This document shows positions 4,971-34,143 of a stretch of DNA of 51,574 bases, in pieces. The stretch spans positions 1-51,574 of the forward strand of contig DATMAT010000022.1 in the NCBI GenBank assembly GCA_035559815.1. The letters are read 5' to 3'. Under the pieces are notes generated by a model. The model was not told the origin of the DNA and searched no databases. It saw only the letters and a program-made list of their open reading frames with translations. Position 1 is the stretch's first letter; every line of letters begins with the position of its first letter. Source of the stretch: Thermodesulfobacteriota bacterium. Lineage in GTDB: Bacteria > Desulfobacterota_D > UBA1144 > Nemesobacterales > CSP1-2. Made by a program: the position numbers and the translations under genes.

Positions 4971-5744
4971 TCAATCATGCAAATTGAACCTGAACGCTAC
5001 GCCCCGGAAGTTCTGCCAGGTCACCTCGCCCTCCGGCGCCAGTATTCTTGTCGGGTTTACTACATAGCTCAGCGCCCTTAAGACCTGATTGTCCCTCTCC
5101 GCCAGCCAGTCGGAAATCTCTTCGAGAAGAATAGCCACCGGGATCCCCAGAGCGGGGGTGAGTATCAGGTCGTTAAGCGAGGGCGACTGCTGCCATCCCT
5201 CTATGGTGTATTCAAAGAGTGTGCTCTGTAGGAAACAACCTAGGGCCGAAGAGGTCCTGTCGTATCCAAGCGCCCGGTAGTAGAAATAAAAGGACATTCC
5301 GGCAACGGGATGCTTTATGAAATTGGTCTCGAAACTGTCACCATCGAGAAGGGGAGGGCTCAAGAGAGATTTTCTCGACCGGGCGCCGTTGAAGTCCTGC
5401 CAGCCGGTCAGGTTTCTTAAATATTTAGGTAGGAAGTCGGTTATAACAACCTGGGCATTCTTTGGAGCGATGTATGTCCTCCCCGCCCAGACGATTCCGT
5501 AGCCAATGAACGAATCTCTGGTAAATTCACCCAGATTTGACCCTATAGATTTTTCCTTGTTCTTACGACCCAGCGAGCGTGACTCCTTCTTCAATGTCAG
5601 GTCTATGGAATCCGTATCCGGTATAAAAATGGGAGGCGTATCGCCGTAGATGTCCCGGATGGCCCAGTCATTGGCCTTTGCCTCCTCGAGGGCGCTCAGG
5701 ATGGTAAAAAAGGCTAGTGTGATAATTGTGGTACGTCGAGTCAT
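4971..5744 (-). CDS. DUF3943-type exported protein
   Basis: About 257 residues from the ATG at 5744, preferred over 5771 because AGAGG lies just upstream and because it starts at a signal peptide (RRTTIITLAFFTILSA, cleavage near ANDWA). The middle and end have the pattern of DUF3943 outer-envelope proteins: ETNFIKHPVAGMSFYFYYRALGY, then FEYTIEGWQQSPSLNDLILTPALGIPVAI. These probably form an envelope-associated helical or barrel fold; no activity is known. Monocistronic. Confidence 0.72.
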   Translation of the reverse strand: MTRRTTIITLAFFTILSALEEAKANDWAIRDIYGDTPPIFIPDTDSIDLTLKKESRSLGRKNKEKSIGSNLGEFTRDSFIGYGIVWAGRTYIAPKNAQVVITDFLPKYLRNLTGWQDFNGARSRKSLLSPPLLDGDSFETNFIKHPVAGMSFYFYYRALGYDRTSSALGCFLQSTLFEYTIEGWQQSPSLNDLILTPALGIPVAILLEEISDWLAERDNQVLRALSYVVNPTRILAPEGEVTWQNFRGVAFRFNLHD

Positions 5745-17013: not shown

Positions 17014-17130
17014 GTTAGCGTGTCAGCGTGTTCATACGTTGAATGTGTCAAATACTGGATAAGTTTTTACCTATATTGGCAAAGAGAAGGATAGTCTATT
17101 TTTTTATAGCTGGTTTGACCTAGGTAGCTT
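17014..17130 (-). pseudogene. Decayed 3' end of a four-helix-bundle gene (copy 1)
   Basis: On the minus strand the remnant reads KLIQYLTHST followed by a repeat-encoded tail, closely matching KLISYLAHST at the end of the intact gene at 17570-17965. A stop codon and a frameshift interrupt it further upstream. It starts at an octamer arm (GTTAGCGTG type, 17014-17045). Confidence 0.6.
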
Positions 17131-17149
17131 CTTTTCAAGATAACGTAGT

Positions 17150-17377
17150 TTAAATGGAAGTAAGGAACCCAAACTTGACTTCGAGGTCTGTCTCATCCTC
17201 CTCCTTGGAAGGAGGCGCTTGGTGCTCTATAACTCTTTGGATGGCCAGTATCTCTCTCTCCATATTATCGAGCTTTTTGTGAATCTTCTTCATATCCTCG
17301 AAAATAACTTCAAGCGTAACCTTCTTTTTCAGTGTTGATTTTTTCTTGGCTCTAAGCTTACCCTTGGGTTTTGCCAT
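17150..17377 (-). CDS. Small lysine-rich coiled-coil protein
   Basis: 75 residues. A basic N-terminus (KPKGKLRAKKKSTLKKK) precedes a heptad-patterned helix (VIFEDMKKIHKKLDNMEREILAIQRVIE) and an acidic end. Likely a short coiled coil, function unknown. It sits inside copy 1 of the octamer/four-helix-bundle element, between the decayed gene and the opposite octamer arm. Confidence 0.45.
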   Translation of the reverse strand: MAKPKGKLRAKKKSTLKKKVTLEVIFEDMKKIHKKLDNMEREILAIQRVIEHQAPPSKEEDETDLEVKFGFLTSI

Positions 17378-17484
17378 GGCTAATCGCCTCTCTCCGGTTT
17401 TTCGCCTTCAGTACGGATACATTTTACTTTGACAACATTGTAAAAGTATCTGAGTAGCCTTGTCAATAACTTAAAATTATCTGT

Positions 17485-17521
17485 AAACCCGTTAACCCGT
17501 AAACCCGCCAACCCGTGAAGC
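17485..17521. repeat. Octamer-repeat arm (AACCCGNN), copy 1
   Basis: Four successive degenerate octamers of the form AACCCGNN. The complementary form (NNCGTGTT) lies at 17014-17045 and 17571-17612, so opposite arms enclose the four-helix-bundle sequences. Directly followed by CTTTTAACAGACCAC (17521-17535) and a solitary CRISPR-repeat relic. Confidence 0.7.
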
Positions 17522-17535
17522 TTTTAACAGACCAC

Positions 17536-17560
17536 ATTTCAATTCCTCATAGGTAGGCGG
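17536..17560. repeat. Solitary CRISPR-repeat relic 1
   Basis: Begins ATTTCAATTCCTCATAGGTA, matching the first dozen bases of the array repeat (GTTTCAATCCCT) but continuing CATAGGTAGGCGG instead of TTCAGGGAG. The second half resembles the 30-bp repeat class with a TCATAGGTA or TTATAGGTA core found with type I-B/III arrays. It is preceded by the same CTTTTAACAGACCAC tract as the first true repeat of the array. Confidence 0.6.
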
Positions 17561-17569
17561 TTGCACCCG

Positions 17570-17965
17570 TTAGCGTGTTGTCGTGTTCACTTGTTTAAGT
17601 GTTGAATGTGCTAAGTACGAGATAAGTTTACCTATCTTAGCGGAGAGGAGATTGGTTTTGATAACTAACTCATTAAAATCTTGATAGGATAAGTACTCAA
17701 GGTCTCTGGCGATATGTAATTGTGTTCTTACTTCTCCGGTCGAACCTTTTGCATAGTGCAGAAATTTAATGAAATCTTTTCTCGTCTTTCTCTCAAATCC
17801 CTCCGCTATATTTGAAGCTATTGATACTGCAGCTCTTTCGATCTGATCTTTAAGTCCAAAGTCTTTAACAAATTTCTCTTTGTTTGTGGCACGATAGATG
17901 TTAACAGCAAGGGCTCTAGCCTCTTGCCAAATTTCTAGGTCCTCGAACCTCTTTACAGTTTTCAT
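17570..17965 (-). CDS. Four-helix-bundle protein (S23/IVS-encoded family), copy 2
   Basis: 131 residues of the TIGR02436-type family first seen in intervening sequences of 23S rRNA genes: RFEDLEIWQEARALAVNIY, then IERAAVSIASNIAEGFERKT and FIKFLHYAKGSTGEVRTQL. These are the diagnostic helices. The fold is a pentameric four-helix bundle; no enzyme activity is known. The last residues (about STLKQVNTTTR and the stop) are encoded by the octamer repeat itself. An octamer arm of opposite sense lies 5' of the gene (18052-18071). No reverse transcriptase is near, so it is not a DGR accessory. Confidence 0.85.
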   Translation of the reverse strand: MKTVKRFEDLEIWQEARALAVNIYRATNKEKFVKDFGLKDQIERAAVSIASNIAEGFERKTRKDFIKFLHYAKGSTGEVRTQLHIARDLEYLSYQDFNELVIKTNLLSAKIGKLISYLAHSTLKQVNTTTR

Positions 17966-18068
17966 ATCCGTTTATTTTTTGTATGTTAACTTGATTGGAG
18001 TCATATATTTATATCAATGATCGAAAGTGTATTGCTGTATGTATATCTTTTCAACCCGCGAACTCGTG

Positions 18069-18169
18069 AACCTTGAATCTGCAGAGTCCATTTATTCCTG
18101 GAGGTCAGTATTTCTAACCCGCAAACCCGCCAACCCGTGAACCTTTTAACAGACCTCGTTTCAATCCCT
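18069..18169. repeat. 101-bp duplication ending in a CRISPR-repeat fragment, left copy
   Basis: Nearly identical (two differences by eye) to 18294-18394, 225 bp away. It contains CCTTGAATCTGCAGAGTCC, an octamer arm at 18116-18143, CTTTTAACAGACC, and the first 12 bases of the array repeat. The left copy continues as a relic (18158-18180); the right copy continues as repeat 1 of the array. Confidence 0.85.
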
Positions 18170-18180
18170 CATAGGTAATG
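18158..18180. repeat. Solitary CRISPR-repeat relic 2
   Basis: GTTTCAATCCCT is identical to the array repeat start, followed by CATAGGTAATG as in relic 1. It has no second repeat and no spacer of array length next to it. Confidence 0.65.
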
Positions 18181-18187
18181 AAATGAA

Positions 18188-18293
18188 TTGTTAGCGTGTT
18201 GTCGTGTTCGCTTGTTTACGTGCTAGATAAAACAACTAAGAAGTGAATTTACCGATCTCGCTGGGGAGAAAATGAGTTTGAGAGAGGTTGTAG
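18188..18293 (-). pseudogene. Decayed 3' end of a four-helix-bundle gene (copy 3)
   Basis: Begins with the octamer arm GTTAGCGTGTTGTCGTGTTC, the same arm that encodes the end of the intact gene. The minus-strand reading LIFSPARSVNSLLS aligns with NLLSAKIGKLISYL of the intact protein. Only about 70 bp of gene remains before the 101-bp duplication. Confidence 0.5.
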
Positions 18294-18394
18294 AACCTTG
18301 AATCTGCAGAGTCCATTTATTCCCGGAGGTCAGTATTTCTAACCCGCAAACCCGCCAACCCGTGAACCTTTTAACAGACCACGTTTCAATCCCT
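18294..18394. repeat. 101-bp duplication, right copy (abuts the array)
   Basis: Right copy of the sequence at 18069-18169. Differences are T to C near position 30 and T to A just before the repeat. It runs into array repeat 1 (18383-18419) and so marks the left boundary of the CRISPR array. Confidence 0.85.
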
Positions 18395-21300
18395 TTCAGG
18401 GAGTAAGAGGTTTTTCTACAAAGTGGAGCTTGCGATACAGCTGAAGGATACATGAAGTTTCAATCCCTTTCAGGGAGTAAGAGGTTTTTCTACTCACTGT
18501 GGCATTATTGACGAGTTGCACGCCCACAAGTTTCAATCCCTTTCAGGGAGTAAGAGGTTTTTCTACAGAAATATCGCATTACATCAAAGTGCATGAGAAG
18601 AGTTTCAATCCCTTTCAGGGAGTAAGAGGTTTTTCTACTGGAGCGCGAAGAATTATCTGATGCACATATCCAGTTTCAATCCCTTTCAGGGAGTAAGAGG
18701 TTTTTCTACCAGGCGCCTGAGCGGCTCCACCTCCATGGAGGCCAGGTTTCAATCCCTTTCAGGGAGTAAGAGGTTTTTCTACGCGAATATCAATGCCGTT
18801 ATCAACTTTAAAGATTTGTTTCAATCCCTTTCAGGGAGTAAGAGGTTTTTCTACTAGGTCTGCTCAAGCTCAAGCGGCTGTTCATCGTGGTTTCAATCCC
18901 TTTCAGGGAGTAAGAGGTTTTTCTACAGGGAAGAGACTTGATTTGAGCTTAAAAATAGCTAGTTTCAATCCCTTTCAGGGAGTAAGAGGTTTTTCTACGC
19001 GAAAGTAGGGTTTGAGAACCGAATTGACCGCTTTGGGGTTTCAATCCCTTTCAGGGAGTAAGAGGTTTTTCTACTATGGATACGTGATTTCACTGGTGAA
19101 AATGTCAGTGGGTTTCAATCCCTTTCAGGGAGTAAGAGGTTTTTCTACCAGTATTCGAGAGAAGGGCAAATAGAGGAAGTAGAAAGGTTTCAATCCCTTT
19201 CAGGGAGTAAGAGGTTTTTCTACGAACGGGTACGAATAAGAGAGGCTGAAGCGCGAAAAGTTTCAATCCCTTTCAGGGAGTAAGAGGTTTTTCTACAGGA
19301 TCGGCAAAGAATCCACATATAATAGTCGCCGAGTTTCAATCCCTTTCAGGGAGTAAGAGGTTTTTCTACCGTATGATGCGAAGAGGCCTAGTATGAGTAA
19401 GCGTGGAGTTTCAATCCCTTTCAGGGAGTAAGAGGTTTTTCTACTCGCTGTCGCTACTATTGGTACGAAGAACCTTTAGAGTTTCAATCCCTTTCAGGGA
19501 GTAAGAGGTTTTTCTACTTTGTAGATTCGTTCGCTATTTGCTAACGGTAAAGTTTCAATCCCTTTCAGGGAGTAAGAGGTTTTTCTACCGATTCGCCGAA
19601 TCTAAAGAAGGTAGTAAGCTAATTGTTTCAATCCCTTTCAGGGAGTAAGAGGTTTTTCTACCAGTCCGGCATCGTAGGACACTCCGTTCACTGTGGTGTT
19701 TCAATCCCTTTCAGGGAGTAAGAGGTTTTTCTACCATTGGAGAGTATACCAAGATGACCAAGGTAAACCAGTGTTTCAATCCCTTTCAGGGAGTAAGAGG
19801 TTTTTCTACCTCGATGTGCCGGATTCTCCGGTTAATCTTAATGAGTTTCAATCCCTTTCAGGGAGTAAGAGGTTTTTCTACTCAACCGATCATCCCGCTT
19901 GTTATCTGCCGGTTCAGTTTCAATCCCTTTCAGGGAGTAAGAGGTTTTTCTACAGAAAAAATGCCACAAACAAAGAATGGCAAGGCGTACGTTTCAATCC
20001 CTTTCAGGGAGTAAGAGGTTTTTCTACTTTGAAGACTTTTGACTATGTCACCAGTCTCATACCAGTTTCAATCCCTTTCAGGGAGTAAGAGGTTTTTCTA
20101 CCTACGTGAGCACGGTTATCCTACGATAACCGTGTGTTTCAATCCCTTTCAGGGAGTAAGAGGTTTTTCTACCACAGCAAAATTGTCATGACAAATTCTG
20201 TTTTGTCATGTTTCAATCCCTTTCAGGGAGTAAGAGGTTTTTCTACTCCACTTCGTGAAAAAGAGCTTGAGTTGATAATAAGTTTCAATCCCTTTCAGGG
20301 AGTAAGAGGTTTTTCTACTAGTACCGTCAAAGTTGATCAACGCGCCATCATCTGTTTCAATCCCTTTCAGGGAGTAAGAGGTTTTTCTACCTACAAGAAT
20401 GACCCAACTCGTCGGGAAACGTGGTTTGTTTCAATCCCTTTCAGGGAGTAAGAGGTTTTTCTACTTTTAGCATCGGCATAATTAGAAGCCCAGGAGTCGT
20501 TTCAATCCCTTTCAGGGAGTAAGAGGTTTTTCTACCTTCCTTTAACTACGCCATAATCATCCGCAAAATTCCATAGTTTCAATCCCTTTCAGGGAGTAAG
20601 AGGTTTTTCTACACATAAATTTAAAAACGGAGGTACATAAAAATGGCGTTTCAATCCCTTTCAGGGAGTAAGAGGTTTTTCTACAGGCGAATCGGTCAAG
20701 AATAATTGTAGCTAATCCCGGGTTTCAATCCCTTTCAGGGAGTAAGAGGTTTTTCTACTGAAGCGGCGTTATATTTAGCTGGACACGAACGGCAAGTTTC
20801 AATCCCTTTCAGGGAGTAAGAGGTTTTTCTACTCGTACCCGTCCTTTATCATCGACTTGCTCGACTCTGTTTCAATCCCTTTCAGGGAGTAAGAGGTTTT
20901 TCTACCCAAACGCTGCGGTATTTGTAGTGTCTCCCATTGATGCGTTTCAATCCCTTTCAGGGAGTAAGAGGTTTTTCTACTTACGTGAGCATCACCATTG
21001 AAATTGTGTTGTCTTGGTTTCAATCCCTTTCAGGGAGTAAGAGGTTTTTCTACCCTTTATCATTTCTGCTATCAATGCATCTTCCTCTGTTTCAATCCCT
21101 TTCAGGGAGTAAGAGGTTTTTCTACCCTAACTGGACATCTAATTGTGCTCCCCTTCTTAGTAGGTTTCAATCCCTTTCAGGGAGTAAGAGGTTTTTCTAC
21201 ATTGTCGTTCATACCAGATAACGTTTCCTCAAATACATGTTTCAATCCCTTTCAGGGAGTAAGAGGTTTTTCTACGTTCCCGCACTTCCTCGGTTGGTAC

Positions 21301-24271
21301 TAGTTCGTGTAAGTTTCAATCCCTTTCAGGGAGTAAGAGGTTTTTCTACCTCTTGCCGCATTTGCCGGAGCCGTAGCAGTTAACGAGTTTCAATCCCTTT
21401 CAGGGAGTAAGAGGTTTTTCTACAAGAGGAAAAAAGACTAGCCGAGTTTCAGAAAGAGGTTTCAATCCCTTTCAGGGAGTAAGAGGTTTTTCTACCTCGT
21501 ACTCCGTGTCTCCGCCCTCGAGATTATTCTGTTTCAATCCCTTTCAGGGAGTAAGAGGTTTTTCTACTGATTGTCTTCAACTAGCTGCACTATGTCTTTG
21601 AAGGTTTCAATCCCTTTCAGGGAGTAAGAGGTTTTTCTACCAGAGCGTATGCTCTTCGCCGTTCTTCCGAGCCGTAGTTTCAATCCCTTTCAGGGAGTAA
21701 GAGGTTTTTCTACTTGCTTACCGGGCGTAATTGATGTTTAACGTGCAAGTTTCAATCCCTTTCAGGGAGTAAGAGGTTTTTCTACTAGGAATTTTCTTCA
21801 CTGGTAAATTTCCATCTTGACAGTTTCAATCCCTTTCAGGGAGTAAGAGGTTTTTCTACATCTTCACCATCTCCATCTCCATCATAGGTGATATGTTTCA
21901 ATCCCTTTCAGGGAGTAAGAGGTTTTTCTACAAAGCTTGCTAAACAAACGGGAAGACCCCAAACTTGTTTCAATCCCTTTCAGGGAGTAAGAGGTTTTTC
22001 TACACCAATGCCGGTCCGCAGGTGTGAAAGTATTTGTGAGTTTCAATCCCTTTCAGGGAGTAAGAGGTTTTTCTACCTAAGACCCTGGGAAGTGACGCAT
22101 TTTAAATATTTTGTTTCAATCCCTTTCAGGGAGTAAGAGGTTTTTCTACATTAACTCCTTAATATCATAACACTTAACCCGACAGTTTCAATCCCTTTCA
22201 GGGAGTAAGAGGTTTTTCTACTTAAAGTGAAATCTGATTATGCCGGGGGTGCAACGGTGTTTCAATCCCTTTCAGGGAGTAAGAGGTTTTTCTACTCATA
22301 AGTGTATGTGTATTTCTCTCTTTTTTCTGAGTTTCAATCCCTTTCAGGGAGTAAGAGGTTTTTCTACCTAGGTATTCATATGGTCTTTAATAGTTTCTAT
22401 TGAGTTTCAATCCCTTTCAGGGAGTAAGAGGTTTTTCTACATCTTCACCATCTCCATCTCCATCATAGGTGATATGTTTCAATCCCTTTCAGGGAGTAAG
22501 AGGTTTTTCTACCAAGAGTCCAGATTTTTGAACAGGCATTAAACAATTTAAGTTTCAATCCCTTTCAGGGAGTAAGAGGTTTTTCTACTTGAGTGGGATA
22601 CCAATTCTGGCACTCCATACGCAGTTTCAATCCCTTTCAGGGAGTAAGAGGTTTTTCTACATTCAACTATTTTTTCTAAAGGATTAGCAGAAATAAGTTT
22701 CAATCCCTTTCAGGGAGTAAGAGGTTTTTCTACCCAAAAGAGGTACTTGATACTCTTCAGCCATTAGTGTTTCAATCCCTTTCAGGGAGTAAGAGGTTTT
22801 TCTACTGATGCATTAGAAAATGAAAGATTTTTGTAAGGAGGTTTCAATCCCTTTCAGGGAGTAAGAGGTTTTTCTACTAGAATCGGAGATAGGGAAGAAC
22901 TTCTTGATATAAAGTTTCAATCCCTTTCAGGGAGTAAGAGGTTTTTCTACCCCTACTCCCCAATCACATGAAGCCACATAGAGCAGCGTTTCAATCCCTT
23001 TCAGGGAGTAAGAGGTTTTTCTACAAAGAGCGCTACGATTTTTTCCCACTGCTTAGGCTTGTTTCAATCCCTTTCAGGGAGTAAGAGGTTTTTCTACTTG
23101 CGAAAATTCTGGCAGTGGTGTCCGCTTTGCTCGGTTTCAATCCCTTTCAGGGAGTAAGAGGTTTTTCTACTTTGAGGTAATCCAGTAGAGATTATATAAG
23201 GGGTAAGTTTCAATCCCTTTCAGGGAGTAAGAGGTTTTTCTACTTTTTCAGTTTCTATAGATGATTTGCAAATTCTCTTGTTTCAATCCCTTTCAGGGAG
23301 TAAGAGGTTTTTCTACTCTATATTACTCTTTCCCATTTTGTTCATCCGGCTGGTTTCAATCCCTTTCAGGGAGTAAGAGGTTTTTCTACTTTAGGGCAAT
23401 CAACTTAGCTAAAAAAATTTACGAGTTTCAATCCCTTTCAGGGAGTAAGAGGTTTTTCTACAAAAGTCCCTCTTCGGGCTTTTACTTTTTTAGACAAGTT
23501 TCAATCCCTTTCAGGGAGTAAGAGGTTTTTCTACCGGAGGAATTCGGCCTGAATAAGCACACGCTAAGAAGTTTCAATCCCTTTCAGGGAGTAAGAGGTT
23601 TTTCTACTACAAGCCACAGTAATAGCACCACTGGCTTGCGTATGTTTCAATCCCTTTCAGGGAGTAAGAGGTTTTTCTACGCAAGGGTCTATCCAATCGA
23701 GTCCTTTGTTGTGGAAGTTTCAATCCCTTTCAGGGAGTAAGAGGTTTTTCTACTCGACAGCTTTCTGCAAAGTAGCTGTGGGATACAAAGTTTCAATCCC
23801 TTTCAGGGAGTAAGAGGTTTTTCTACCTTGCTACCGGGATCGATCCCGACAGTAACGGCCTGGTTTCAATCCCTTTCAGGGAGTAAGAGGTTTTTCTACT
23901 CGAAGAGCAAGATTGAATGGACTAATGCTACCTGGGTTTCAATCCCTTTCAGGGAGTAAGAGGTTTTTCTACCCAGCTTCTCGGTCTTTCTTAAATTTTT
24001 TATTCTCAAAGTTTCAATCCCTTTCAGGGAGTAAGAGGTTTTTCTACCTCTGCCTTTAGAATCGGTAGGATTGAACGGAGACTTTGTTTCAATCCCTTTC
24101 AGGGAGTAAGAGGTTTTTCTACTTCCCAATATCTCGAAGCATGGAGGCCGGGACGCCCCAGTTTCAATCCCTTTCAGGGAGTAAGAGGTTTTTCTACCTA
24201 AGAGAAAGTTATCTACAGCCAACGAAGAGGATATGTTTCAATCCCTTTCAGGGAGTAAGAGGTTTTTCTAC
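18383..24271 (-). CRISPR. CRISPR array, 81 repeats / 80 spacers
   Basis: By hand count, 81 copies of a 37-bp repeat, plus-strand form GTTTCAATCCCTTTCAGGGA + GTAAGAGGTTTTTCTAC, all apparently identical, with spacers of about 34-38 nt (mean unit about 73 bp). In the minus-strand reading the repeat ends AGGGATTGAAAC. It contains a perfect TCCCT-GAA-AGGGA hairpin, so Cas6 cleavage at the stem base would leave the 8-nt ATTGAAAC tag. This sets the likely crRNA strand as minus, with the leader expected at the cas-gene side (right end). Spacer 48 (21860-21894) and spacer 56 (22441-22475) are identical. Apparent ORFs through the array are translations of the repeat. Confidence 0.98.
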
Positions 24272-25166: not shown

Positions 25167-25442
25167 TTATAAAACTATGGCATCCTCAGGCAGGGGCTCG
25201 ATCCCGCCGATTCTCTCTATCTTCTCAATGTCATTTTCACACAGAAAATAAAACCTGATGCTATCTCCCTCTTCGGCTTTTATTTGCTTCTCCAATCTAT
25301 CTCTCATTCTGAGGTAATCCACTTTGGTTATATCACATTCAAACACGCTGAATTGGACCCACTGTCCAAAGTTCTTGAGGGTTTTAAAAATCTTTCCACG
25401 GCGGCGGTCATCTTTAATGTCATAAGATACCACAACGAACAT
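25167..25442 (-). CDS. cas2: CRISPR-associated endonuclease Cas2
   Basis: 91 residues, ferredoxin-like fold. The catalytic/structural aspartate is in VVSYDIKDDRRRGKIFKTL (about 4-22), followed by WVQFSVFECDI and the C-terminal strand SIRFYFLCENDIEKI. It forms the Cas1-Cas2 integrase that inserts new spacers. It lies 170 bp downstream of cas1, separated by a heptamer-repeat block. Confidence 0.95.
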   Translation of the reverse strand: MFVVVSYDIKDDRRRGKIFKTLKNFGQWVQFSVFECDITKVDYLRMRDRLEKQIKAEEGDSIRFYFLCENDIEKIERIGGIEPLPEDAIVL

Positions 25443-25454
25443 GAGCTACCCGCA

Positions 25455-25612
25455 CTCCCGTCATTAGCTATTAGTCTTTAGTCCTTCGACTGTTTTTGTC
25501 CAAGGACGAACGACAAACGTCCAACGACTCTTCTATAATCCCGTCATTAGCTATTAGTCTTTAGTCCTTCGACTGTCTTTGTCCAAGGACCAAGGACTAA
25601 CGACTAACGACT
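25455..25612. repeat. Heptamer-hairpin block A (cas1-cas2 junction)
   Basis: Two tandem units of about 80 bp. Each has heptamers of the form GTCNTTR, the centre GACTGTTTTTGTCC (GACTGTCTTTGTCC in the second unit), then the complementary YAANGAC series. The units can fold into long imperfect hairpins. The repeat begins right after the cas1 stop codon (AAATAAAGTCGTTAG on the minus strand). Confidence 0.9.
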
Positions 25613-26653
25613 TTATTTAATCAGAAACGGTATATACTCCTCTATCTCACCGGAGATAAACTTGCCCAAAAGCCTAGCCTGAAGCTCAAAGCTCTTGAAG
25701 TACGTTGCTTTGTAATCAAACAGAGGATGCTTTATCTCGGCTCGCTTTTTCTCCTCGTAATGCTGTAGGAATTTTTTGAATGCGCTGTCTTTAAGCTTGT
25801 AAACCTTTCCTAGTTCTAAATCGAAATCATCAATCTGTATAACCTTTTTGTTTATCAAAGAAAGCACCAGGGAGTCGACAATCACCGGTCTAAACTCTTC
25901 TACCAAGTCCAACGCCAGGGATGGCTTTCCGTATTTGTCCGAATGGAGAAACCCGATGTAGGGGTCGAATCCAACAATATTGCACACGGTGTGCACGTCG
26001 TTTGTAAGAAGAACATAGCCCAATGAGAGAAGAGCGTTTACGGGGTCGGTAGGCGGTCTTCTCTCTCTTCCATCAAAACTAAAGCCGTCCGCTTTTATGA
26101 GTTCTCCAAAAACACCGAAATAAGCGGCGGTTCCGGCTCCCTCATGTCCTCGTATTTCATCCACGGATGTAGCGTCTTTAAGTTTTCTAATCGTAACCTT
26201 TATTCTTTCTATGGCCTCTTCGATTCTATTTCCTGAGATATTGGAGCTTACCTCATCAACCTTATCTTCGGGACTTTGCGCACGCCCTGCCCTGAGCAGA
26301 ATTGTACGTATATTTGCAAGTTTGCCGTAAACCAGGGCTTTACTGATAGCTTCTGTCTTACCCTTGTCGTCGGATGCTTTATACTGAGCCTTTCTCAGAA
26401 TAGAGTTCTTTGAAAACTCCGGCTGTAACCGCCCTATGTATTTTCCAAAGGTAGTTAGATAAACAATCTCTATTCCGTGTTCTAGCAGGGACCTGACGGT
26501 TAAAGGTGTAACTGTCACCCTTCCCCAGACCACAACATGGTCTACTTTTATCAGGGGAACGTCGATTATTGTTTCTTTCTCGATCGTGACTTTGAGACGC
26601 TCGTCAACCTTTCTAAGCACCGAACCGTCACGGGTTATGTGCAACGTACTCAT
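25613..26653 (-). CDS. cas1: CRISPR-associated integrase Cas1
   Basis: 346 residues. An N-terminal beta domain (1-75: MSTLHITRDGSVLRK, HVVVWGRVTVTPLTVRSLLE) precedes the helical catalytic domain. Metal ligands: E171 in EIRGHEGAGTAAYFG, H237 in GFLHSDKYGKPSLALDL, and D249/E252 in DLVEEFRP. This is the nuclease-integrase that catalyses spacer insertion with Cas2. It is of the kind found with type I-A to I-D systems. Heptamer repeats bracket it on both sides. Confidence 0.96.
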   Translation of the reverse strand: MSTLHITRDGSVLRKVDERLKVTIEKETIIDVPLIKVDHVVVWGRVTVTPLTVRSLLEHGIEIVYLTTFGKYIGRLQPEFSKNSILRKAQYKASDDKGKTEAISKALVYGKLANIRTILLRAGRAQSPEDKVDEVSSNISGNRIEEAIERIKVTIRKLKDATSVDEIRGHEGAGTAAYFGVFGELIKADGFSFDGRERRPPTDPVNALLSLGYVLLTNDVHTVCNIVGFDPYIGFLHSDKYGKPSLALDLVEEFRPVIVDSLVLSLINKKVIQIDDFDLELGKVYKLKDSAFKKFLQHYEEKKRAEIKHPLFDYKATYFKSFELQARLLGKFISGEIEEYIPFLIK

Positions 26654-26664
26654 CCTACCTCCTC

Positions 26665-26915
26665 ATCCCCGTCGTTAGCTTTTAGTCTTTAGTCATTAGA
26701 TTTAGTCTAACGACAAACGGCCAACTCCTTCCCACATCCCCGTCTTTAGCTATTAGTCCTTGGTCTTTAGACTGTTTTTATCCAACGACTAACAGCCAAC
26801 GACTAACGACTCTTCTGTAATCCCGTCATTAGCTATTAGTCTTTAGTCCTTCGACTGTTTTTATCGAATGACCAAAGACCAAGGACCAACGACATTTCTT
26901 CCAACGGCTAACGAC
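26665..26915. repeat. Heptamer-hairpin block B
   Basis: About three units of the same GTCNTTR / YAANGAC hairpin repeat, joined by CTCCTTCCCACATCCCCG or CTCTTCTGTAATCCCG linkers. The right end overlaps the stop codon of the four-helix-bundle gene: AGAAAAAGTCGTTAG encodes its last residues R-K-S-R and the TAG. Confidence 0.9.
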
Positions 26916-27282
26916 TTTTTCTTAAAGAGTTTACTAAGCCATTAATTAGCGTACCGACTTTATCACATCTGGTTATAGTTTGAATTACCTCCTCTTCATT
27001 TACATAGCCAAGTCTTTCTGCAATCTTGACTGCAGTAACAACCTCGTAAAGAGACCTCCTTGCAATAGTTAGAAACTGAATAAATTCCTTATCAGTATTA
27101 CAACCGCTTCCTTCGGCTATATTCAGGGGCACTGATGACACTGCTCTCCTTAACTGATCCACTAATACGAAGGATTCGTTTTTGGGGAAACTAGTCGTAA
27201 GCTTATAAATCTCTTCTACCAGATTCATCCCTTCTTGCCAGGCTTTTAGCCTTTCAAATCTATACATCCTTGCCTCCCGCAC
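26908..27282 (-). CDS. Four-helix-bundle protein (S23/IVS family) between cas4 and cas1
   Basis: 124 residues, same family as the gene at 17570 but clearly diverged: RFERLKAWQEGMNLVEEIY, then VDQLRRAVSSVPLNIAEGSG and FIQFLTIARRSLYEVVTAV. It interrupts the usual cas4-cas1 adjacency and has heptamer arrays on both sides. Its last codons (RKSR and stop) come from the repeat, exactly as in cas6. The start may be the inner ATG at 27267 (MYRFERLK). No enzymatic role is known for the family; a mobile intervening-sequence-like element is the simplest reading. Confidence 0.85.
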   Translation of the reverse strand: MREARMYRFERLKAWQEGMNLVEEIYKLTTSFPKNESFVLVDQLRRAVSSVPLNIAEGSGCNTDKEFIQFLTIARRSLYEVVTAVKIAERLGYVNEEEVIQTITRCDKVGTLINGLVNSLRKSR

Positions 27283-27289
27283 ATCCGTC

Positions 27290-27535
27290 GTTGGTTATTA
27301 GCCATTAGTCTTTAGACTGTCCTTATCCAACGACCAAGGACAAACGACTAACGACCAACTCCTTCCCACATCCCCGTCTTTGGCTATCAGTCTTTAGTCC
27401 TTCGATTGTTTTTGTCCAAGGACGAACGACTAACGACCAACTCCTTCCCACACTCCTGTCTTTGGCTATTAGTCCCTGGTCCTTTGATTCTTTGTCTAAC
27501 GACAAACGACTAATGACTAAAGTCCAAAGTCCAGT
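27290..27535. repeat. Heptamer-hairpin block C
   Basis: About three hairpin units between the four-helix-bundle gene and the cas4 stop. The repeat runs into cas4: the minus-strand heptamers GGACTTT-GGACTTT-AGTCATT encode the last residues of Cas4 and its TAG stop. Confidence 0.9.
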
Positions 27536-28254
27536 TTTACTCTTCTTGCCTTTTCCTCCTCTTTCGGCAGGCATACAGGGTAAAGACTGCAACCGGCGCA
27601 TTTACCCTTGTAGAACGCAGGAGGCTTAACCCCGCTTCTCATAAGCTCCCGGACCTTCTCTATCATCTCAACCGTGTATTTCCTGAGTTCCTCATCGAGA
27701 ATCACTTCAACCCTTCTCCCAGACGAAGCATAATAAATGAATCCCTTCGGGATTCTCGTCGTTAGTCCTCGGTCTTTGGTCCTTGGAGTTTTCTCGTCTA
27801 AAGACGAATGACCAACGACCAACGACTCTTCGTCGAAGGGCGAACGACTAACGACTAAAGACGGCTCGCCGGTAGACGGGCTAAGCATTTCCTCGATGCA
27901 TAGTGCCTGGGCGCAGAGCTGGAGCTTGTCGTTTTTCCAATCCCCGCGCCTTCCCCTCTTGTATTCCACCGGATAGATTTCTCCTGCCTTTTCCTCTATT
28001 AAATCTGCAAATCCTATAAGACCGTATTTCTTTGAATATACGTGCACTCTTCTGAGTTGCACCAGGTCTCCCCGGGTAGTTTTCATGGTTTTGTGCACGT
28101 TCTCGTGGATGATATCGCCTTCCACCGTGTATTCGTTATCCTTGAACTCGCCGGCCACATAAATCCAGTAGCACCGGGTGGGACAGTACTCATAGTGGTT
28201 AAGCGCTGAGATAAATATATAGTCGTTAATCTCTTGTCTTTGGTCTTTAGACAT
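27517..28254 (-). CDS. cas4: Cas4 nuclease with an in-frame repeat insertion
   Basis: 245 residues. RecB-type nuclease that trims pre-spacers and helps fix their PAM orientation. Fe-S cysteines C24 (EYCPTRC) and C219, C222, C228 (KCAGCSLYPVC). Active-site residues H50 (GDIIHENVH), D84 (GFADLIEE), E97 and K99 (PVEYKRG), Q112 (LQLCAQAL). Between the Q motif and the strand GFIYYASSGRRVEV lies about 36 extra residues (about 132-167) encoded by a complete heptamer hairpin (block D); no stop or frameshift results. The first codons (SKDQRQEIND) and the last (LDFGL) also read through heptamer sequence. It is full length otherwise and probably active if the insert forms a surface loop. Confidence 0.92.
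   Translation of the reverse strand: MSKDQRQEINDYIFISALNHYEYCPTRCYWIYVAGEFKDNEYTVEGDIIHENVHKTMKTTRGDLVQLRRVHVYSKKYGLIGFADLIEEKAGEIYPVEYKRGRRGDWKNDKLQLCAQALCIEEMLSPSTGEPSLVVSRSPFDEESLVVGHSSLDEKTPRTKDRGLTTRIPKGFIYYASSGRRVEVILDEELRKYTVEMIEKVRELMRSGVKPPAFYKGKCAGCSLYPVCLPKEEEKARRVKLDFGL
27757..27863. repeat. Heptamer-hairpin block D, inside cas4
   Basis: Four GTCNTTR-type heptamers, the turn GAGTTTTCTC, and several YAANGAC heptamers, then a second partial set. About 107 bp lie within the cas4 reading frame and it stays open. The same sequence class is otherwise only between genes in this window. Confidence 0.92.
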
Positions 28255-28323
28255 GACTGAGTACCTGCTAATTTCATCTACATTGGTATCTCCAGAAATC
28301 GTATACCTGAACGTTCTTCCCGC

Positions 28324-28448
28324 ACCCTCGTCTTTAGCTGTTTGTCTTTAGTCTTTCGACTGTTTTTGTCTAACGACTAATGACGAAGGACCAAAGACTT
28401 TTTATCTAACGACTAACGACTAACGACTAACGACAAAAGACCAATAGC
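28324..28448. repeat. Heptamer-hairpin block E
   Basis: One full hairpin unit followed by a run of four nearly perfect ACTAACG heptamers, between the AbiEii-like toxin stop and the cas4 start. The interval 28255-28452 otherwise has no gene. Confidence 0.9.
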
Positions 28449-28452
28449 TATC

Positions 28453-29124
28453 TTAAACATCAATCCACTCTTTGCTCATCTCTTCTACTTCATAAGAGAA
28501 AAATTCTTTTACCTCTGTCCACTGCAATTTTTGAATCATCCTGGGCATCTTTTCTCTTTCGGCATCTTCAAAATATACAAGGGCTCTCAAGGCCTGCATC
28601 GGGAAGTCTCTTACTCTGGGGAATTTTTTACTGCTCAGCCTCAAAAGGCTTTTAAGAGATGTATGAAAGTTAGCGATAAAATATAGGTCTATAAAATCTT
28701 TTTTGCTGCCCCGCCCGACAATGGCAGCGATTTTCATTAATCCGATATCTGAGAAAGAGGCTATCCGTAGATTTCCAAAATCAATCAGAGGAGACACTAG
28801 GGGATATTCGTAGTGAAAAAAGCTCATACCTACACGGCCTAGGTAAATTCTTAAGGTTCCCTGCTCTTCTAGTTCAACCTCTACCTTTCCTGCCTTGGAT
28901 AAACAGCGGATGATTTTTTCTCTTGAATTTCTTTTAAGTTCTTCTCTATTTGAGAAAAAATCAAAATCTTGGGAGACACGGTGCCCGATTTGAAGGGCAA
29001 GTCCTGTTCCACCAGCTAGATAGAAGTCTTTGAGAAAGGATTGCTCATGCAGGATTTTGTAAACGGATCTTGCCCCTTTTGTCAGAGCTTCGGTATGAAG
29101 GTTCTCTTTCATCAGTATCTCCAT
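28453..29124 (-). CDS. AbiEii/AbiGii-type nucleotidyltransferase toxin
   Basis: 223 residues of the DUF1814 family. The nucleotidyltransferase core FYLAGGTGLALQIGHR (about 34-49) is followed by the acidic pair in SQDFDFFS, then RIYLGRVGMSFFHYEYPLV, and the family's KIAAIVGRGSKKDFIDLYF segment. Such toxins transfer nucleotides to cellular targets and act in abortive phage infection. It overlaps the upstream antitoxin gene by 13 nt. The pair sits between cas6 and cas4, with heptamer arrays on both sides. Confidence 0.85.
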   Translation of the reverse strand: MEILMKENLHTEALTKGARSVYKILHEQSFLKDFYLAGGTGLALQIGHRVSQDFDFFSNREELKRNSREKIIRCLSKAGKVEVELEEQGTLRIYLGRVGMSFFHYEYPLVSPLIDFGNLRIASFSDIGLMKIAAIVGRGSKKDFIDLYFIANFHTSLKSLLRLSSKKFPRVRDFPMQALRALVYFEDAEREKMPRMIQKLQWTEVKEFFSYEVEEMSKEWIDV

Positions 29125-29426
29125 AAAGGGTATTTATCGGTCAGCCAATCAGGCTTTTTGTATCGTCTTATCTTGAGCACGATCCGCCAGTAATTAAACC
29201 CGCGTTTGGAAAGAACCCTGTACCCTCGTGCTCTCACAAACTCCTTGATTCTTTGAGCACCGTATGTTTTAAAGAGCCATTTAAGCTCTTCTCTTGTACC
29301 GAACTCGAGCGTTCTTCCGATTATAAGCTCCACATCTTTTTCTGTATCCAGAGATGAAAAATCGTATTCTTGAAAATAAGGTGCAATGGTTTTTATTATC
29401 TTGGTTTTCATTTTCTTCCTATACAT
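29112..29426 (-). CDS. DUF6922-like antitoxin partner
   Basis: 104 residues, predicted helical and basic (EKDVELIIGRTLEFGTREEL, then LFKTYGAQRIKEFVRARGYR and the C-terminal KIRRYKKPDWLTDKYPLWRY). Small proteins with this pattern are commonly encoded directly before AbiEii-type toxins and are their antitoxins. Overlap with the toxin indicates coupled translation. An alternative start is the inner Met at 29411. Confidence 0.7.
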   Translation of the reverse strand: MYRKKMKTKIIKTIAPYFQEYDFSSLDTEKDVELIIGRTLEFGTREELKWLFKTYGAQRIKEFVRARGYRVLSKRGFNYWRIVLKIRRYKKPDWLTDKYPLWRY

Positions 29427-29429
29427 TTT

Positions 29430-29712
29430 TATCTAAAGACTAACGTTCTTCCAGCACTCCCGTCTTTAGCTATTTATCTTTAGTCCTTAGACTGTTTTAT
29501 TGTCCAAGGACAAACGACTAACGTCCAACGACTCTTCTATAATCTCGTCTTTAGCTATTAGTCTTTCGATTCTTTGTCTAACGACCAAAGACCAACGACC
29601 AACTCCTTCCCACATTCCCGCCTTTGGCTATTAGTCCTTCGTCCTTCGACTGTTTTTGTCCAAGGACCAAGGACTAACGACTAACGACTAACGACTTTTT
29701 CTACTAACGACT
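29430..29712. repeat. Heptamer-hairpin block F
   Basis: About three to four hairpin units between cas6 and the toxin-antitoxin pair. The right end encodes the last residues of Cas6: minus-strand AGAAAAAGTCGTTAG gives R-K-S-R and the stop, the same sequence that ends the four-helix-bundle gene at 26908. Confidence 0.9.
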
Positions 29713-30500
29713 CTTCGCGTCATTCCCATCCCGTGCGTAGTTTTCCTTCCCGTGCCTGCAAAGATAGGTTCATATCTTGCCATACCTAACCCCATAGTTG
29801 TCTTTGCCCCGATGCCCGCGATAGTTGCATATCGAGCGAGGGCATGTATTTGTTGACGAAGAACTTTATTGCGCTCGGCAATTCTAAAGATCACTGTTCC
29901 GTTGAAAGCATGAATTTCCTCTTGATTGAGACCTATAACAATGGTACTTACCCTACTAGAATCAAGAATTAATAGCCTGCTCTTTTCCCAGATAGTGGGT
30001 AGATCTTCAGACATTTTGATGGGAGAAAAGCTATGCCAGCGAGTACATAAATTGCCAAAAATTAAAATAGGATCAGGCAGAGGATAGTCATAATCACCTC
30101 TTTTGAAAGTAGTCTTACGAAAACTTAAACTGAAATACTCAGAAGAATTAGCCCCTAACAAGATGTCAGAATAGGTCGGAAAGGGAAAACTGTTAACAAA
30201 AGCTATATGCCCATCCCAAGAGTCGAGATTAAATTTATAACCAACTTTTTGTGGTAATTCTTCAGCCAGAGTATCTTTAAAGCTCTCTAATAGAAGATTA
30301 ACTCTAAGCTTCATCTGAGCACCTTGAGAAACAGATTTATACCGCAGAGTATAAGGTTTAAACGATAAACTAGACCGAAGTAGGTCAGCAGTTTTCGTTT
30401 TTAGTATTTTCTTAAAGAAGAGTCCATGCAAAGCCCGGCCCCATTCGACTCCCTTGGGTAAGGCTTGATCAAAAGCCAGAGTTAGTTCAAATCCTTGCAT
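29688..30500 (-). CDS. cas6: Cas6 crRNA-processing endoribonuclease
   Basis: 270 residues, RAMP fold. The glycine-rich loop GIGAKTTMGLGMA lies at about 229-241, where Cas6 proteins normally end. Here a second, similar segment GTGRKTTHGMGMT (249-261) follows, and then a tail encoded by the heptamer repeat (RRVVSRKSR). Cas6 cuts the repeat RNA at the base of the TCCCT-GAA-AGGGA stem. The start codon is directly adjacent to the cas3 stop (TAG-ATG), so translation is coupled. Confidence 0.88.
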   Translation of the reverse strand: MQGFELTLAFDQALPKGVEWGRALHGLFFKKILKTKTADLLRSSLSFKPYTLRYKSVSQGAQMKLRVNLLLESFKDTLAEELPQKVGYKFNLDSWDGHIAFVNSFPFPTYSDILLGANSSEYFSLSFRKTTFKRGDYDYPLPDPILIFGNLCTRWHSFSPIKMSEDLPTIWEKSRLLILDSSRVSTIVIGLNQEEIHAFNGTVIFRIAERNKVLRQQIHALARYATIAGIGAKTTMGLGMARYEPIFAGTGRKTTHGMGMTRRVVSRKSR

Positions 30501-33275
30501 CTAAGCTATAATCGCTCCTTCATCGAATTCGGATTCACTCGCTTCCTCTCCACTGGATCGAGCCAGCGGAATACCAACCGAATAAGTAAAACTCCTAGCC
30601 TGCTTAGAGTTTTTTGCTTTTCCCTTTTTGGATTTTTCAGAGGTTTCATCTCTCGGCAAGAGATCCATTACAGGATTGAACTCTCGGGTATAACTATTTC
30701 GCCAAGTGTTAGAGACAAATATTTTTGGTAATTTAACATGTCCAATCTTTTCATCATAGCTACTTTCCGAGACAACAATGATTAGCTCTTTGAAGTAGAC
30801 TCTTCCGCTTCTGGCTCTTTCCCAGTACCATCCACCTTTATCATAGTTGTATACTTTCTCAAAAATCGGATTAGCTTGGGCAATCAATTCTCTCTGTTCA
30901 TCAACAGATAATTTATCCCATCTAGTCTTCGATATAGCCAAGCTTTCAATTCCAACTTCAATTGCATTTTTGAGATTTTCTGTTGCTTTAGTATGTGGTT
31001 CTAATCGAGTTGTTGTAAGAGTAACTCTAGGTTCCCAACTACGTGTAATTATAAAACCCTGCTTGTGAAGATAGGAATTTAGAATATTGAAGTTATAAAC
31101 ATAGTCATAAAGAAGTCCAAAGAGCATTTCGATCCTGTAGTCGAATAAAGGTTCTGTTTTTATATGCTCCTTTATCCTTTGAACATTAAATATTCCACCA
31201 TCCTGATGATTAAGTTCATCAATATAATTTTTAAACCACTCCTTATAAGTCTCTTCATCCCACTGCGGACGTAAGAATTTGGGTATTTCGTTTCCTATTA
31301 CTATCAATTCGTATTCTCCTTTTTTATCTTTTCTGTTACACCGTCCTGCACGCTGAATGAGATTTTCGGGAAGTGGAAGTTGAGTTATAAGTACATGAGC
31401 ATCCAAGTCACATCCAACTTCAATAGCGCTAGTAGTAACAAGTACATAACCCCGATTACTTTCATTGAGTTCTTTCAGCTTACTATAACGATCCTTTCTC
31501 TCCTCATCTGGTAGTCTTCCATGATAAAGAATAAGATTCTTTGCATCTATTTCCCCACTTACTTCGAGCTTTTTATAGACCTCAGCGGCATCTTCGACTT
31601 TTTCAAACACGACGATTATATGTTTTTCGCTGGTATATCGGCTTAAAACCTCTTTTAATGTGAGATTAATGATTAAGTTTTCTGTTTTAGTTTCCTCGTC
31701 CGTAGTAGCGAGCTTAGCAGATATGTATTTGAGGGTTTTATCTCCTGATTTTCGGTTAAGCAGGGCAAGCTTTCCAGAAGAGGTGAAATCTATTTGTGAT
31801 TGTAAGAATGTAAGTTCTTTGACTGTCTTTTTCGGCATAGTGGCTGTCATTACTACTATGCCAACTCCGTTTGTATAAAGAGACTCAACAAGTAGCAAGA
31901 AGTTTGTAAAGGCAACATCCTCATAACTGTGGGCTTCATCAAATACCACCACAGTCTTTTTCTTTTTGATATCTCTATGAATACGGCGAGGATAAATATA
32001 TGCTTTATTTTCCGCTCCATATCCAAAGAACCTATATATGAATTTATCAAGGGTTGTCAGGATTATATTAGCCGAATAGAAGTGACGGTCTGGCTTATGA
32101 ACTGCTTTTTGGGGTTGACCACCTCGATAAATCACGTGTTCTATTTGACTACCAGTGTCAACAATACAGCTAAACTGCTGGTCTTTAATTTGTCCTGACA
32201 GGTGTTTCAGGTATCTATCTATTCGCTTTCTCTGGTCATCAACAAGGCTACGTGCTGGTAAGACTAAAATAAGTCTCTTATTAAAGCTGAGTGCTGGAAA
32301 CAAAATTGCCTCAGTCTTTCCAGAACCTGTTGGAGCTAGAATTAAACTTGAAATATCATCATCTGCAAAAAGATCAAAAGCTTCTCTCTGCAAAGCATTT
32401 GGTTTGAAGGTATCCCCGCCAATAAGACGGTAGGTATCATCCACATTATCTTTTTTTAGTAATCCATCTATAAATGTATATGATACTTCTGGAGGCTTTT
32501 TAAGATAATAGCTATGAACAGGCTGGAATCTCCCTATTTGTATAGCCTCTCTTAGCTTTTCCTCTATGTGGTTTTTCAGGTTGTTTGTCTCTTCCCACCA
32601 TTTATTAATGCGAAATTTATCCTCTAATTCGATTTCCAATCCTATTATATCTCTTCTAACGATGTCGAAGACAAACGCCCATGGGTGAACATGCAGATAA
32701 ATCTCACCGTTTGATCGCTTTTCCGGTCTAAGCTCAACATCCATAAAAGTGCGCGATGAAGCATCTCCATCAATTGCCCATGTGGCTGACTCTGCTTCAA
32801 TTTGATCGGCGAGTTCAAGACTATAAAGAAGCTCAGGGTACTCAAATAGGGTATCGGGATTCTCACCCTGCCTTCTAAGAAGGTTTACAGCTTGAACTAT
32901 TGATTCCACGGAGTATTTGTGATGATTCTTTATTAACTGATTTACCAAAGACTCTGTATCTGGGCTGGCCAGTTCATTAACAATCTGTCTATAAGGATGT
33001 CCACGAAAGGAGTAAATTAGAATATATTTTCCATCTTTTTTATCTAGTCTTAAATCAAAGGTATCTATCTTACCGCAATCATGGATTTCCGCTGCTCTTG
33101 CCAGGTTTTCCTTCCATTTAACAAGTTCTTTTTGCACCGATTGGAAAGACTCAATAAGGAATCTGGTGTTTGCTTGATGCGAACTCAAAGTGTGGATTAT
33201 TGCACGAGTCGGAAGACCCGTAGAATCATACTTGAAGAAAATCCTTCCGATTCCTTCCAAGTTTACCTTTTCCAT
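30501..33275 (-). CDS. cas3: Cas3 helicase-nuclease with N-terminal HD domain
   Basis: About 924 residues from the ATG at 33275, preferred over 33299 because AGGGGAG lies 9 nt upstream and it avoids overlap with cas5. HD domain (numbered from 33299): H36, H73-D74 (AEIHDCGKID), H101, H126/H127 (KNHHKYS) and D165 (LELADQIEAE), a complete metal-site set. SF2 helicase: LAPTGSGKTEA (322-331), VVVFDEAHSYED with the DEAH box at 454-457, VVMTATMPKK, and VGCDLDAHVL followed by LIQRAGRCNRKDKKGE. It unwinds and degrades target DNA. In standard type I-D the HD domain is on Cas10d, not on Cas3, so this arrangement is unusual. Confidence 0.95.
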   Translation of the reverse strand: MEKVNLEGIGRIFFKYDSTGLPTRAIIHTLSSHQANTRFLIESFQSVQKELVKWKENLARAAEIHDCGKIDTFDLRLDKKDGKYILIYSFRGHPYRQIVNELASPDTESLVNQLIKNHHKYSVESIVQAVNLLRRQGENPDTLFEYPELLYSLELADQIEAESATWAIDGDASSRTFMDVELRPEKRSNGEIYLHVHPWAFVFDIVRRDIIGLEIELEDKFRINKWWEETNNLKNHIEEKLREAIQIGRFQPVHSYYLKKPPEVSYTFIDGLLKKDNVDDTYRLIGGDTFKPNALQREAFDLFADDDISSLILAPTGSGKTEAILFPALSFNKRLILVLPARSLVDDQRKRIDRYLKHLSGQIKDQQFSCIVDTGSQIEHVIYRGGQPQKAVHKPDRHFYSANIILTTLDKFIYRFFGYGAENKAYIYPRRIHRDIKKKKTVVVFDEAHSYEDVAFTNFLLLVESLYTNGVGIVVMTATMPKKTVKELTFLQSQIDFTSSGKLALLNRKSGDKTLKYISAKLATTDEETKTENLIINLTLKEVLSRYTSEKHIIVVFEKVEDAAEVYKKLEVSGEIDAKNLILYHGRLPDEERKDRYSKLKELNESNRGYVLVTTSAIEVGCDLDAHVLITQLPLPENLIQRAGRCNRKDKKGEYELIVIGNEIPKFLRPQWDEETYKEWFKNYIDELNHQDGGIFNVQRIKEHIKTEPLFDYRIEMLFGLLYDYVYNFNILNSYLHKQGFIITRSWEPRVTLTTTRLEPHTKATENLKNAIEVGIESLAISKTRWDKLSVDEQRELIAQANPIFEKVYNYDKGGWYWERARSGRVYFKELIIVVSESSYDEKIGHVKLPKIFVSNTWRNSYTREFNPVMDLLPRDETSEKSKKGKAKNSKQARSFTYSVGIPLARSSGEEASESEFDEGAIIA

Positions 33276-33279
33276 GTAT

Positions 33280-34143
33280 TTATACTCCCCTAAATCCATC
33301 TTTTAATTTGTCTACTAATCCTTTTGAAATGTAAAGCTCATTTCCATTAAGGTAGTACTCTGTTTTAATAGTCTGATTTAGGTCGGATACAAAAACAGCC
33401 AAGATACTATTAAAGCCATCAACTGGTGAAGGTGAATTTTCAAAAATCGCTGGAGAGGCTTGCCCTTGTTGCCAGCGGTGGTAATAAATTTGATAGGTTG
33501 TAGCATTTAGAACTACGTTGGCACTTTCTAAAGGAACAAGCGAGGATGATGGAGCTTCGATTTTATTTATATCTAAAGGAAAAGGATCATCTACAGCTTC
33601 GAGATACGCATAACCTTCTTTGCCAAGTTTTGTGCCGTAGCCTACCAGTTCTTTAAAGCACGATAAAGAATCTTCATCTTCAGCAAGAACGTACCCTACC
33701 AAGTAATCGGTAAAAAGATACTCCCATGTATGTAATTGAAGGTTGTGAACTTTTCCCTCCTTCCGCATCTTTGAGAAATCACTATGACTGAATTCTCTTG
33801 GACCATGTCGATAGGATTGATGGATACGAAAGTTACGACTGGGTTTATCTGGGTATTGCATTAATCGTGGATAAGCCCCTACGGAGATAAACGATGTTGG
33901 CAAGGTATAGTAGGGTGGATTTCTCTTAGTTCTTCCTCTACCTCGTTCAACGTCGGTTTCAGGATATACACCACGTTCGTTCGGATTATCTTTTTGTGTT
34001 GTTAAAAGAGCAAGCCTTTTTAGAAAACCTGAAAGCGTTGAGGGAGGAACAAAAGGGTATGTAGAAATGTGCAACATAGAGCCTGGTAGAACTCTAAAGG
34101 TTAGAGTGCTAGTTGGTTTAATGTGTAATCTCATTGCGTACAT
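33280..34143 (-). CDS. cas5: Cas5-family effector subunit (Csc1-like position)
   Basis: 287 residues, RAMP fold. The N-terminal strand and glycine-proline turn YPFVPPSTLSGFLKRLAL (about 31-48) are typical of Cas5. A middle DYLVGYVLAEDEDSLSCF strand-helix is followed by LVGYGTKLGKEGYAYLE, the conserved KLG segment. Cas5 binds the 5' tag of the crRNA and caps the Cascade backbone. By gene order it corresponds to Csc1 of type I-D, but the sequence also resembles Cas5 of other subtypes; subtype assignment is uncertain. Confidence 0.8.
   Translation of the reverse strand: MYAMRLHIKPTSTLTFRVLPGSMLHISTYPFVPPSTLSGFLKRLALLTTQKDNPNERGVYPETDVERGRGRTKRNPPYYTLPTSFISVGAYPRLMQYPDKPSRNFRIHQSYRHGPREFSHSDFSKMRKEGKVHNLQLHTWEYLFTDYLVGYVLAEDEDSLSCFKELVGYGTKLGKEGYAYLEAVDDPFPLDINKIEAPSSSLVPLESANVVLNATTYQIYYHRWQQGQASPAIFENSPSPVDGFNSILAVFVSDLNQTIKTEYYLNGNELYISKGLVDKLKDGFRGV

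Follow-up and report, generated by a model that had tools for sequence, protein, structure and literature searches.

A series of three small units at the edge of a CRISPR array

The window, a stretch of 51,574 nucleotides of bacterial DNA, contains a CRISPR array and a cas operon that reads towards it, and three consecutive small units occupy the interval between the left edge of the array and a protein-coding gene that ends at position 17012 (Table 1). The units lie at 17.0–18.4 kb and are built alike: each has octamer arms and a linker and ends in CRISPR-repeat sequence. In each of them, arms of the NNCGTGTT type on the left are balanced by AACCCGNN arms on the right, which are followed by CTTTTAACAGACC and the start of a CRISPR repeat. 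The right ends of the units (17486–17555, 18115–18177 and 18340–18402) carry a common 63-nt stretch in three copies, and a search of the 3.97-Mb genome found exact matches to CTTTTAACAGACC at these three sites only. As a widespread motif CTTTTAACAGACC was rejected, since one-mismatch matches elsewhere were unrelated.

An earlier note on this DNA had described the same threefold order, with a four-helix-bundle (4HB) gene that was decayed, intact and decayed in turn. The three units with arms, linker and repeat start stand, and so does the intact PF05635 gene on the minus strand of the second; the series of gene states needs revision. Unit 1 retains only a C-terminal remnant of the 4HB gene, adjoining the arm, together with a separate and unrelated ORF of 75 aa that matched no family above cut-off in a profile search and nothing in PADLOC. 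Unit 3 is a 4HB unit with an internal deletion, in which the middle of the gene is gone and both arms and the linker are kept. The near-identical tract that had been noticed in copies 2 and 3 was confirmed as 102 bp at 98% identity, and alignment of the two units showed them to be 94% alike in the 5′ part and 60% in the 3′ part. Profile searches found no transposase in the units, which encode only the 4HB protein or the unassigned 75-aa ORF.

Solitary repeat relics had been claimed for copies 1 and 2. Repeat remains are indeed present, but they (TTTCAATYCCTCATAGGTA) are 20–22-nt tails from repeats of another type, which resembles GTTTCAATTCCTTATAGGTAGGCTAAGAAC, the repeat of a genuine array in the related genome G005. 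Copy 3, for its part, does border an array of 81 exact repeats, although it does not open it: since the cas genes run leftward, the minus-strand repeat has its tag ATTGAAAC as its end, and there is a leader-like motif (TTCTTTGACAACTTAATA) on the right side of the array, we place the units at the trailer (oldest) end, so that the 4HB gene is codirectional with the array and downstream of it. The repeat reads on the same strand as the cas genes, and in systems of this kind processed crRNAs usually carry ATTGAAAC as their 5′ tag. The leader-like motif was found again before the first repeat in the related genome G001. Comparison of the array spacers with these elements gave no convincing match.

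The cas operon holds a 4HB gene of its own, with heptamer arms, and a heptamer arm element which a genome search detected only there; its 13 copies are a case of strictly local spread. An AbiEii-like gene and a small neighbour also lie within the operon (28453–29426), with heptamer elements on their flanks.

Table 1. Features of the unit series, the CRISPR array and the cas operon (window coordinates).
Feature	Position	Strand	Remarks
Unit 1: octamer arms, 4HB C-terminal remnant, 75-aa ORF, linker, other-type repeat tail	17014–17560	−	
75-aa ORF in unit 1	17150–17377	−	lysine-rich, without convincing family
AACCCGNN octamer arm, unit 1	17486–17519	−	upstream arm in gene sense
Relic 1, CRISPR repeat tail	17536–17557	−	
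Unit 2: complete element with intact 4HB gene, arms, linker, repeat tail	17569–18177	−	
Intact four-helix-bundle gene	17570–17965	−	PF05635/TIGR02436, 131 aa
AACCCGNN octamer arm, unit 2	18116–18142	−	
Conserved linker, arm to repeat end	18143–18157	−	CTTTTAACAGACC on plus strand
Relic 2, CRISPR repeat tail	18158–18177	−	
Unit 3: internal-deletion derivative, both arms and linker	18190–18382	−	
CRISPR array, 81 exact repeats	18383–24271	−	unit 3 adjoins 3′ end of last repeat
cas2, cas1, cas4, cas6, cas3	25167–33299	−	leftward, reading towards array
Heptamer arm element, about 80 bp	25448–29689		13 copies in cas operon
Second 4HB gene, heptamer arms	26908–27282	−	between cas1 and cas4
Heptamer element in frame inside cas4	27744–27860		adds roughly 40 residues

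Complementary tandem arms are a general feature of 4HB loci

Unit 2 has complementary tandem arms on both sides of its 4HB gene. Judged by eye, nearly every 4HB gene in the bacterial family of the window has tandem 7- or 8-mer arms, the unit varying from locus to locus and being kept at apparently orthologous loci in different genera. The pattern extends well beyond this family. In a wide sample of 80 4HB loci from many phyla, arm periods of 8 and 7 dominate, and the median flank complementarity was 34.5, against 16 in the control, with 59 loci above the 95th percentile of the control. A combined set gave 67 of 106 loci above the complementary-arm threshold, compared with 0–3 permuted pairs, and the upstream arm had a positive GC skew in 64 of these 67. 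Across phyla (loci L089–L168 and L001–L079), 4HB genes thus lie within complementary arms of tandem 7/8-mers, whose unit is specific to the locus, and the upstream arm is G-rich. Armless relatives would have spoken against the structure first described; most 4HB genes proved to have such arms.

Complementary arms also occur at most 4HB loci on viral contigs. 4HB elements enter phage-like contigs, and the arms, including those on viral contigs, fit mobility. On one contig from a viral collection a 4HB element appears, by eye, to lie inside a dnaE-like gene (L207, around 5001–5240); elsewhere an armed 4HB element adjoins a phage tape-measure-like gene (L180, around 5001–5351).

Selection for an RNA hairpin in the sense transcript was considered as a reason for the complementarity and is unsupported: G-U and A-C mismatches numbered 149 and 160 (p = 0.57), and unit 3 folded no better than shuffled sequences. 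One heptamer unit folded only moderately better than its shuffles (z = −2.28). In two arm families of the window (17014–18395 and 26668–27527) we saw by eye one A-G mismatch at a fixed place in each paired repeat unit; only the overall mismatch counts were put to a test.

The repeat–linker junction recurs in several repeat types and two genera

With the whole 1.7-kb region as query, relatives and the genome itself were searched for further octamer units. Two more were found at C78 in the same genome, each behind a solitary repeat relic, and another, in G005, immediately adjoins the end of an array built of a different repeat; this brings the octamer units to six, spread over three loci and two genera and standing behind two repeat types. 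The six are alignable from the repeat end onwards: a GNGGTCTGTTAAAAGGTTYACGGGTTGG-like sequence directly follows ATTGAAA, and the linker TGTYAAAAGGTTYAC is common to them with few differences. Deletion derivatives of like structure stand behind both repeat types, which indicates that an element changed its repeat partner at the same base.

A separate heptamer subfamily repeats this arrangement. It adjoins array ends at C23 in the same genome and at C25 in G005, and its linker NGAGCAAGGCTAGTG immediately follows ATTGAAAC, and does so with four different repeat sequences. The second array of the genome, at C23, has ...GGGAATTGAAAC as its end, and three heptamer units follow in tandem without a gap, with GGGRATTGAAAC between them; the third carries an intact 4HB gene. 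Repeat tails of about 12 nt separate such tandem units. Two more repeat relics, with the linker the same or decayed, lie within a few kb. At C25 yet another repeat is followed by five heptamer units, of which one has kept its 4HB gene intact, and one of the repeat tails is degenerate. One copy of the heptamer linker, at C8, has a 12-nt repeat-like tail and no array; it shows a weak direct repeat. The search pattern for the heptamer linker, with up to 3 mismatches allowed, itself included ATTGAAAC, so heptamer units lacking a repeat could have been missed; one arm element without a repeat end was seen at L027:9985.

A third 4HB element family, with TCCCTAG arms, begins inside a CRISPR repeat at C23 and was seen there twice (L027, 8540 and 11110), once with a 4HB gene and once without. 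The first base of nearly every unit at a CRISPR end comes immediately behind ...ATTGAAAC or a degenerate version of that sequence, and the intact 4HB genes of these units point in the direction of array transcription. The original suggestion, targeting of CRISPR repeats or hitch-hiking with them, is supported, the same junction of a repeat end in ATTGAAAC with a conserved linker being present in six octamer units and in about eleven units of the independent heptamer family, with several repeat types and in two genera. Three arrays in G001 end without any element, their last repeat being degenerate.

The association is confined to certain lineages

Of the genome's eight 4HB genes, four fall in its two CRISPR loci, which make up 0.7% of the sequence (binomial P = 1.7 × 10⁻⁷ under assumed independence, which is not exact: two of the four are neighbours, yet the four belong to four different arm families). 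This makes a chance neighbourhood very improbable, and we say the same of an assembly artefact. The assembly is metagenome-derived and tandem repeats are prone to error, but most parts of the copies are separated by numerous substitutions, and the layout is repeated on other contigs (C23 and C78) and in another genome (G005).

Whether armed 4HB genes elsewhere abut CRISPR repeats has a divided answer: they do so in two genera, both from one bacterial family, and rarely beyond that family. Only one of the 80 loci of the wide sample lay within 8 kb of a CRISPR array, and that one is between cas1 and cas2; a general attraction of 4HB elements to CRISPR arrays is rejected on this count. So is a general attraction to ATTGAAAC, because ATTGAAA[CGT] occurred 16 times near the 4HB genes of the 80 loci, against 17.7 expected. 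Given both results, any site preference is lineage-specific. The one locus near an array belongs to a Nitrospirae genome (L127, 7900–8700), where an armed 4HB gene lies between cas1-like and cas2-like genes, about 600 bp before the array. Around two cyanobacterial 4HB genes on plasmids, no annotated cas genes were seen.

Origin of the units and their relation to the array

The explanation that we favor, at about even probability, is that these are 4HB elements of a known type, certain lineages of which have colonized the 3′ ends of CRISPR repeats by insertion and local multiplication. The units would belong to a widespread class of small and probably mobile elements, in which a 4HB gene lies between inverted tandem 7- or 8-mer arms, and some lineages in this bacterial family would have specialized on repeat ends, inserting directly after ...ATTGAAAC and codirectionally with array transcription. 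At insertion, roughly 12 nt of the repeat end, or more, may be duplicated, as the repeat tails between units suggest; target duplication is put forward as an inference, since we found no empty counterpart of any occupied site. Multiplication could then have proceeded through tandem copies, gene-deleted copies and local recombination, as the copies and the exchange between them indicate. The elements may persist at the trailer end because immunity suffers least there, and collapse of an array would leave a solitary repeat with its element. 

The main rival, to which we assign a lower though substantial probability, has the elements passively inherited and recombined by way of the repeat end that they have in common. 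One element per subfamily would have landed downstream of an ancestral array without any preference, after which array ends and element were duplicated, recombined and inherited together, and arrays collapsed to a repeat plus element. Such a history accounts for part of the copies: the contrast between 94% and 60% likeness in units 2 and 3 shows that tandem duplication and recombination via common repeat ends explain some of them, and the recently exchanged tract starts within the common repeat end and is confined to the half of the units nearer the repeat. The tandem units and duplicated blocks at C23, the presence of both subfamilies in the same two genomes, and the lack of a general CRISPR preference among 4HB elements are likewise what it predicts. 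It is harder to reconcile with at least three arm families standing independently at repeat ends in one genome, with one arm family behind four different repeat sequences, with the repeat-like tail that lacks an array at C8, and with the element-free arrays of G001.

Between genera, the trailer 4HB protein has a dN of 0.095 and a dS of 0.99, values which indicate that it is kept by purifying selection. On the insertion model the protein may act in trans on gene-less copies. Its conservation, together with the codirection with the array, the exactness of the junction and the persistence in two genera, would also suit a domesticated trailer module that serves the CRISPR system, for example by ending or stabilizing the array transcript, or through a 4HB protein that binds repeat RNA or aids adaptation. 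We regard this as improbable: arrays in G001 do without the element, the gene is decayed at C5 in G005 and missing from most units, the fold of unit 3 is not above that of shuffled sequences, and the arms show no excess of G-U pairs.

More speculatively, and with less confidence than in either colonization or passive inheritance, we propose that some 4HB elements recognize the 3′ end of the CRISPR repeat, the future crRNA 5′ tag, as the place to insert and are expressed with the help of array transcription, and perhaps of Cas6 cleavage, so that arrays would be a dedicated harbor for mobile elements that lack a transposase. If this is true, a class of mobile elements whose movement lacks an explanation would land preferentially at CRISPR repeats, and this would account for the solitary repeats and odd sequences found at array trailers. 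The locus-specific complementary 7/8-mer arms around 4HB (S23/IVP) genes in many phyla and on viral contigs suggest that one general element class lies behind scattered reports of intergenic heptamers and octamers, and they offer a concrete way of testing how elements of this kind move.

Comparison with known systems

The protein of unit 2 scores 124.9 bits against PF05635 (curated cut-off 33.8) and 119.5 bits against TIGR02436 (cut-off 24), and it is related to the solved structure 2GSC. The 4HB proteins that we tested matched no PADLOC defence model. Their similarity to the Avd proteins of diversity-generating retroelements is distant, with scores below cut-off (at best 29.6 bits against a cut-off of 80 for NF033474, and 22.8 bits for PF22296), and neither a reverse transcriptase nor a template repeat was noticed next to the element.

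The PF05635/TIGR02436 family is known from intervening sequences (IVS) of 23S rRNA genes (PMC4990558). IVS that encode S23/IVP, such as that of Coxiella (PMC4990558), resemble our units in protein family, short length and complementary ends, and they are considered selfish; they differ in residing within 23S rRNA genes and in being excised by RNase III, whereas the units described here have tandem 7/8-mer arms and lie at CRISPR trailers or in intergenic positions. In the window they are not inside a 23S rRNA gene, their neighbors being a protein-coding gene and the array.

Genes annotated 23S_rRNA_IVP were noted in cas loci in 2013 (PMC3936711). That report thus concerns the same protein family in CRISPR-cas loci, but the genes lie among cas genes, and the available part of the paper mentions neither arms nor a junction with the CRISPR repeat. 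The paired tandem octamer and heptamer sites of Geobacter metallireducens face each other on opposite strands, like the arms described here, and were read as regulator binding sites; 4HB genes and CRISPR repeats go unmentioned in the portion of that article available (PMC2700814). The TAACTGA repeats of Beggiatoaceae are likewise tandem heptamers between genes, but they are direct repeats with a regulatory interpretation, and the terms four helix, intervening and CRISPR are absent from the paper (PMC4679880). A search of open-licence papers yielded no earlier report of the exact junction between a 4HB element and a CRISPR repeat.
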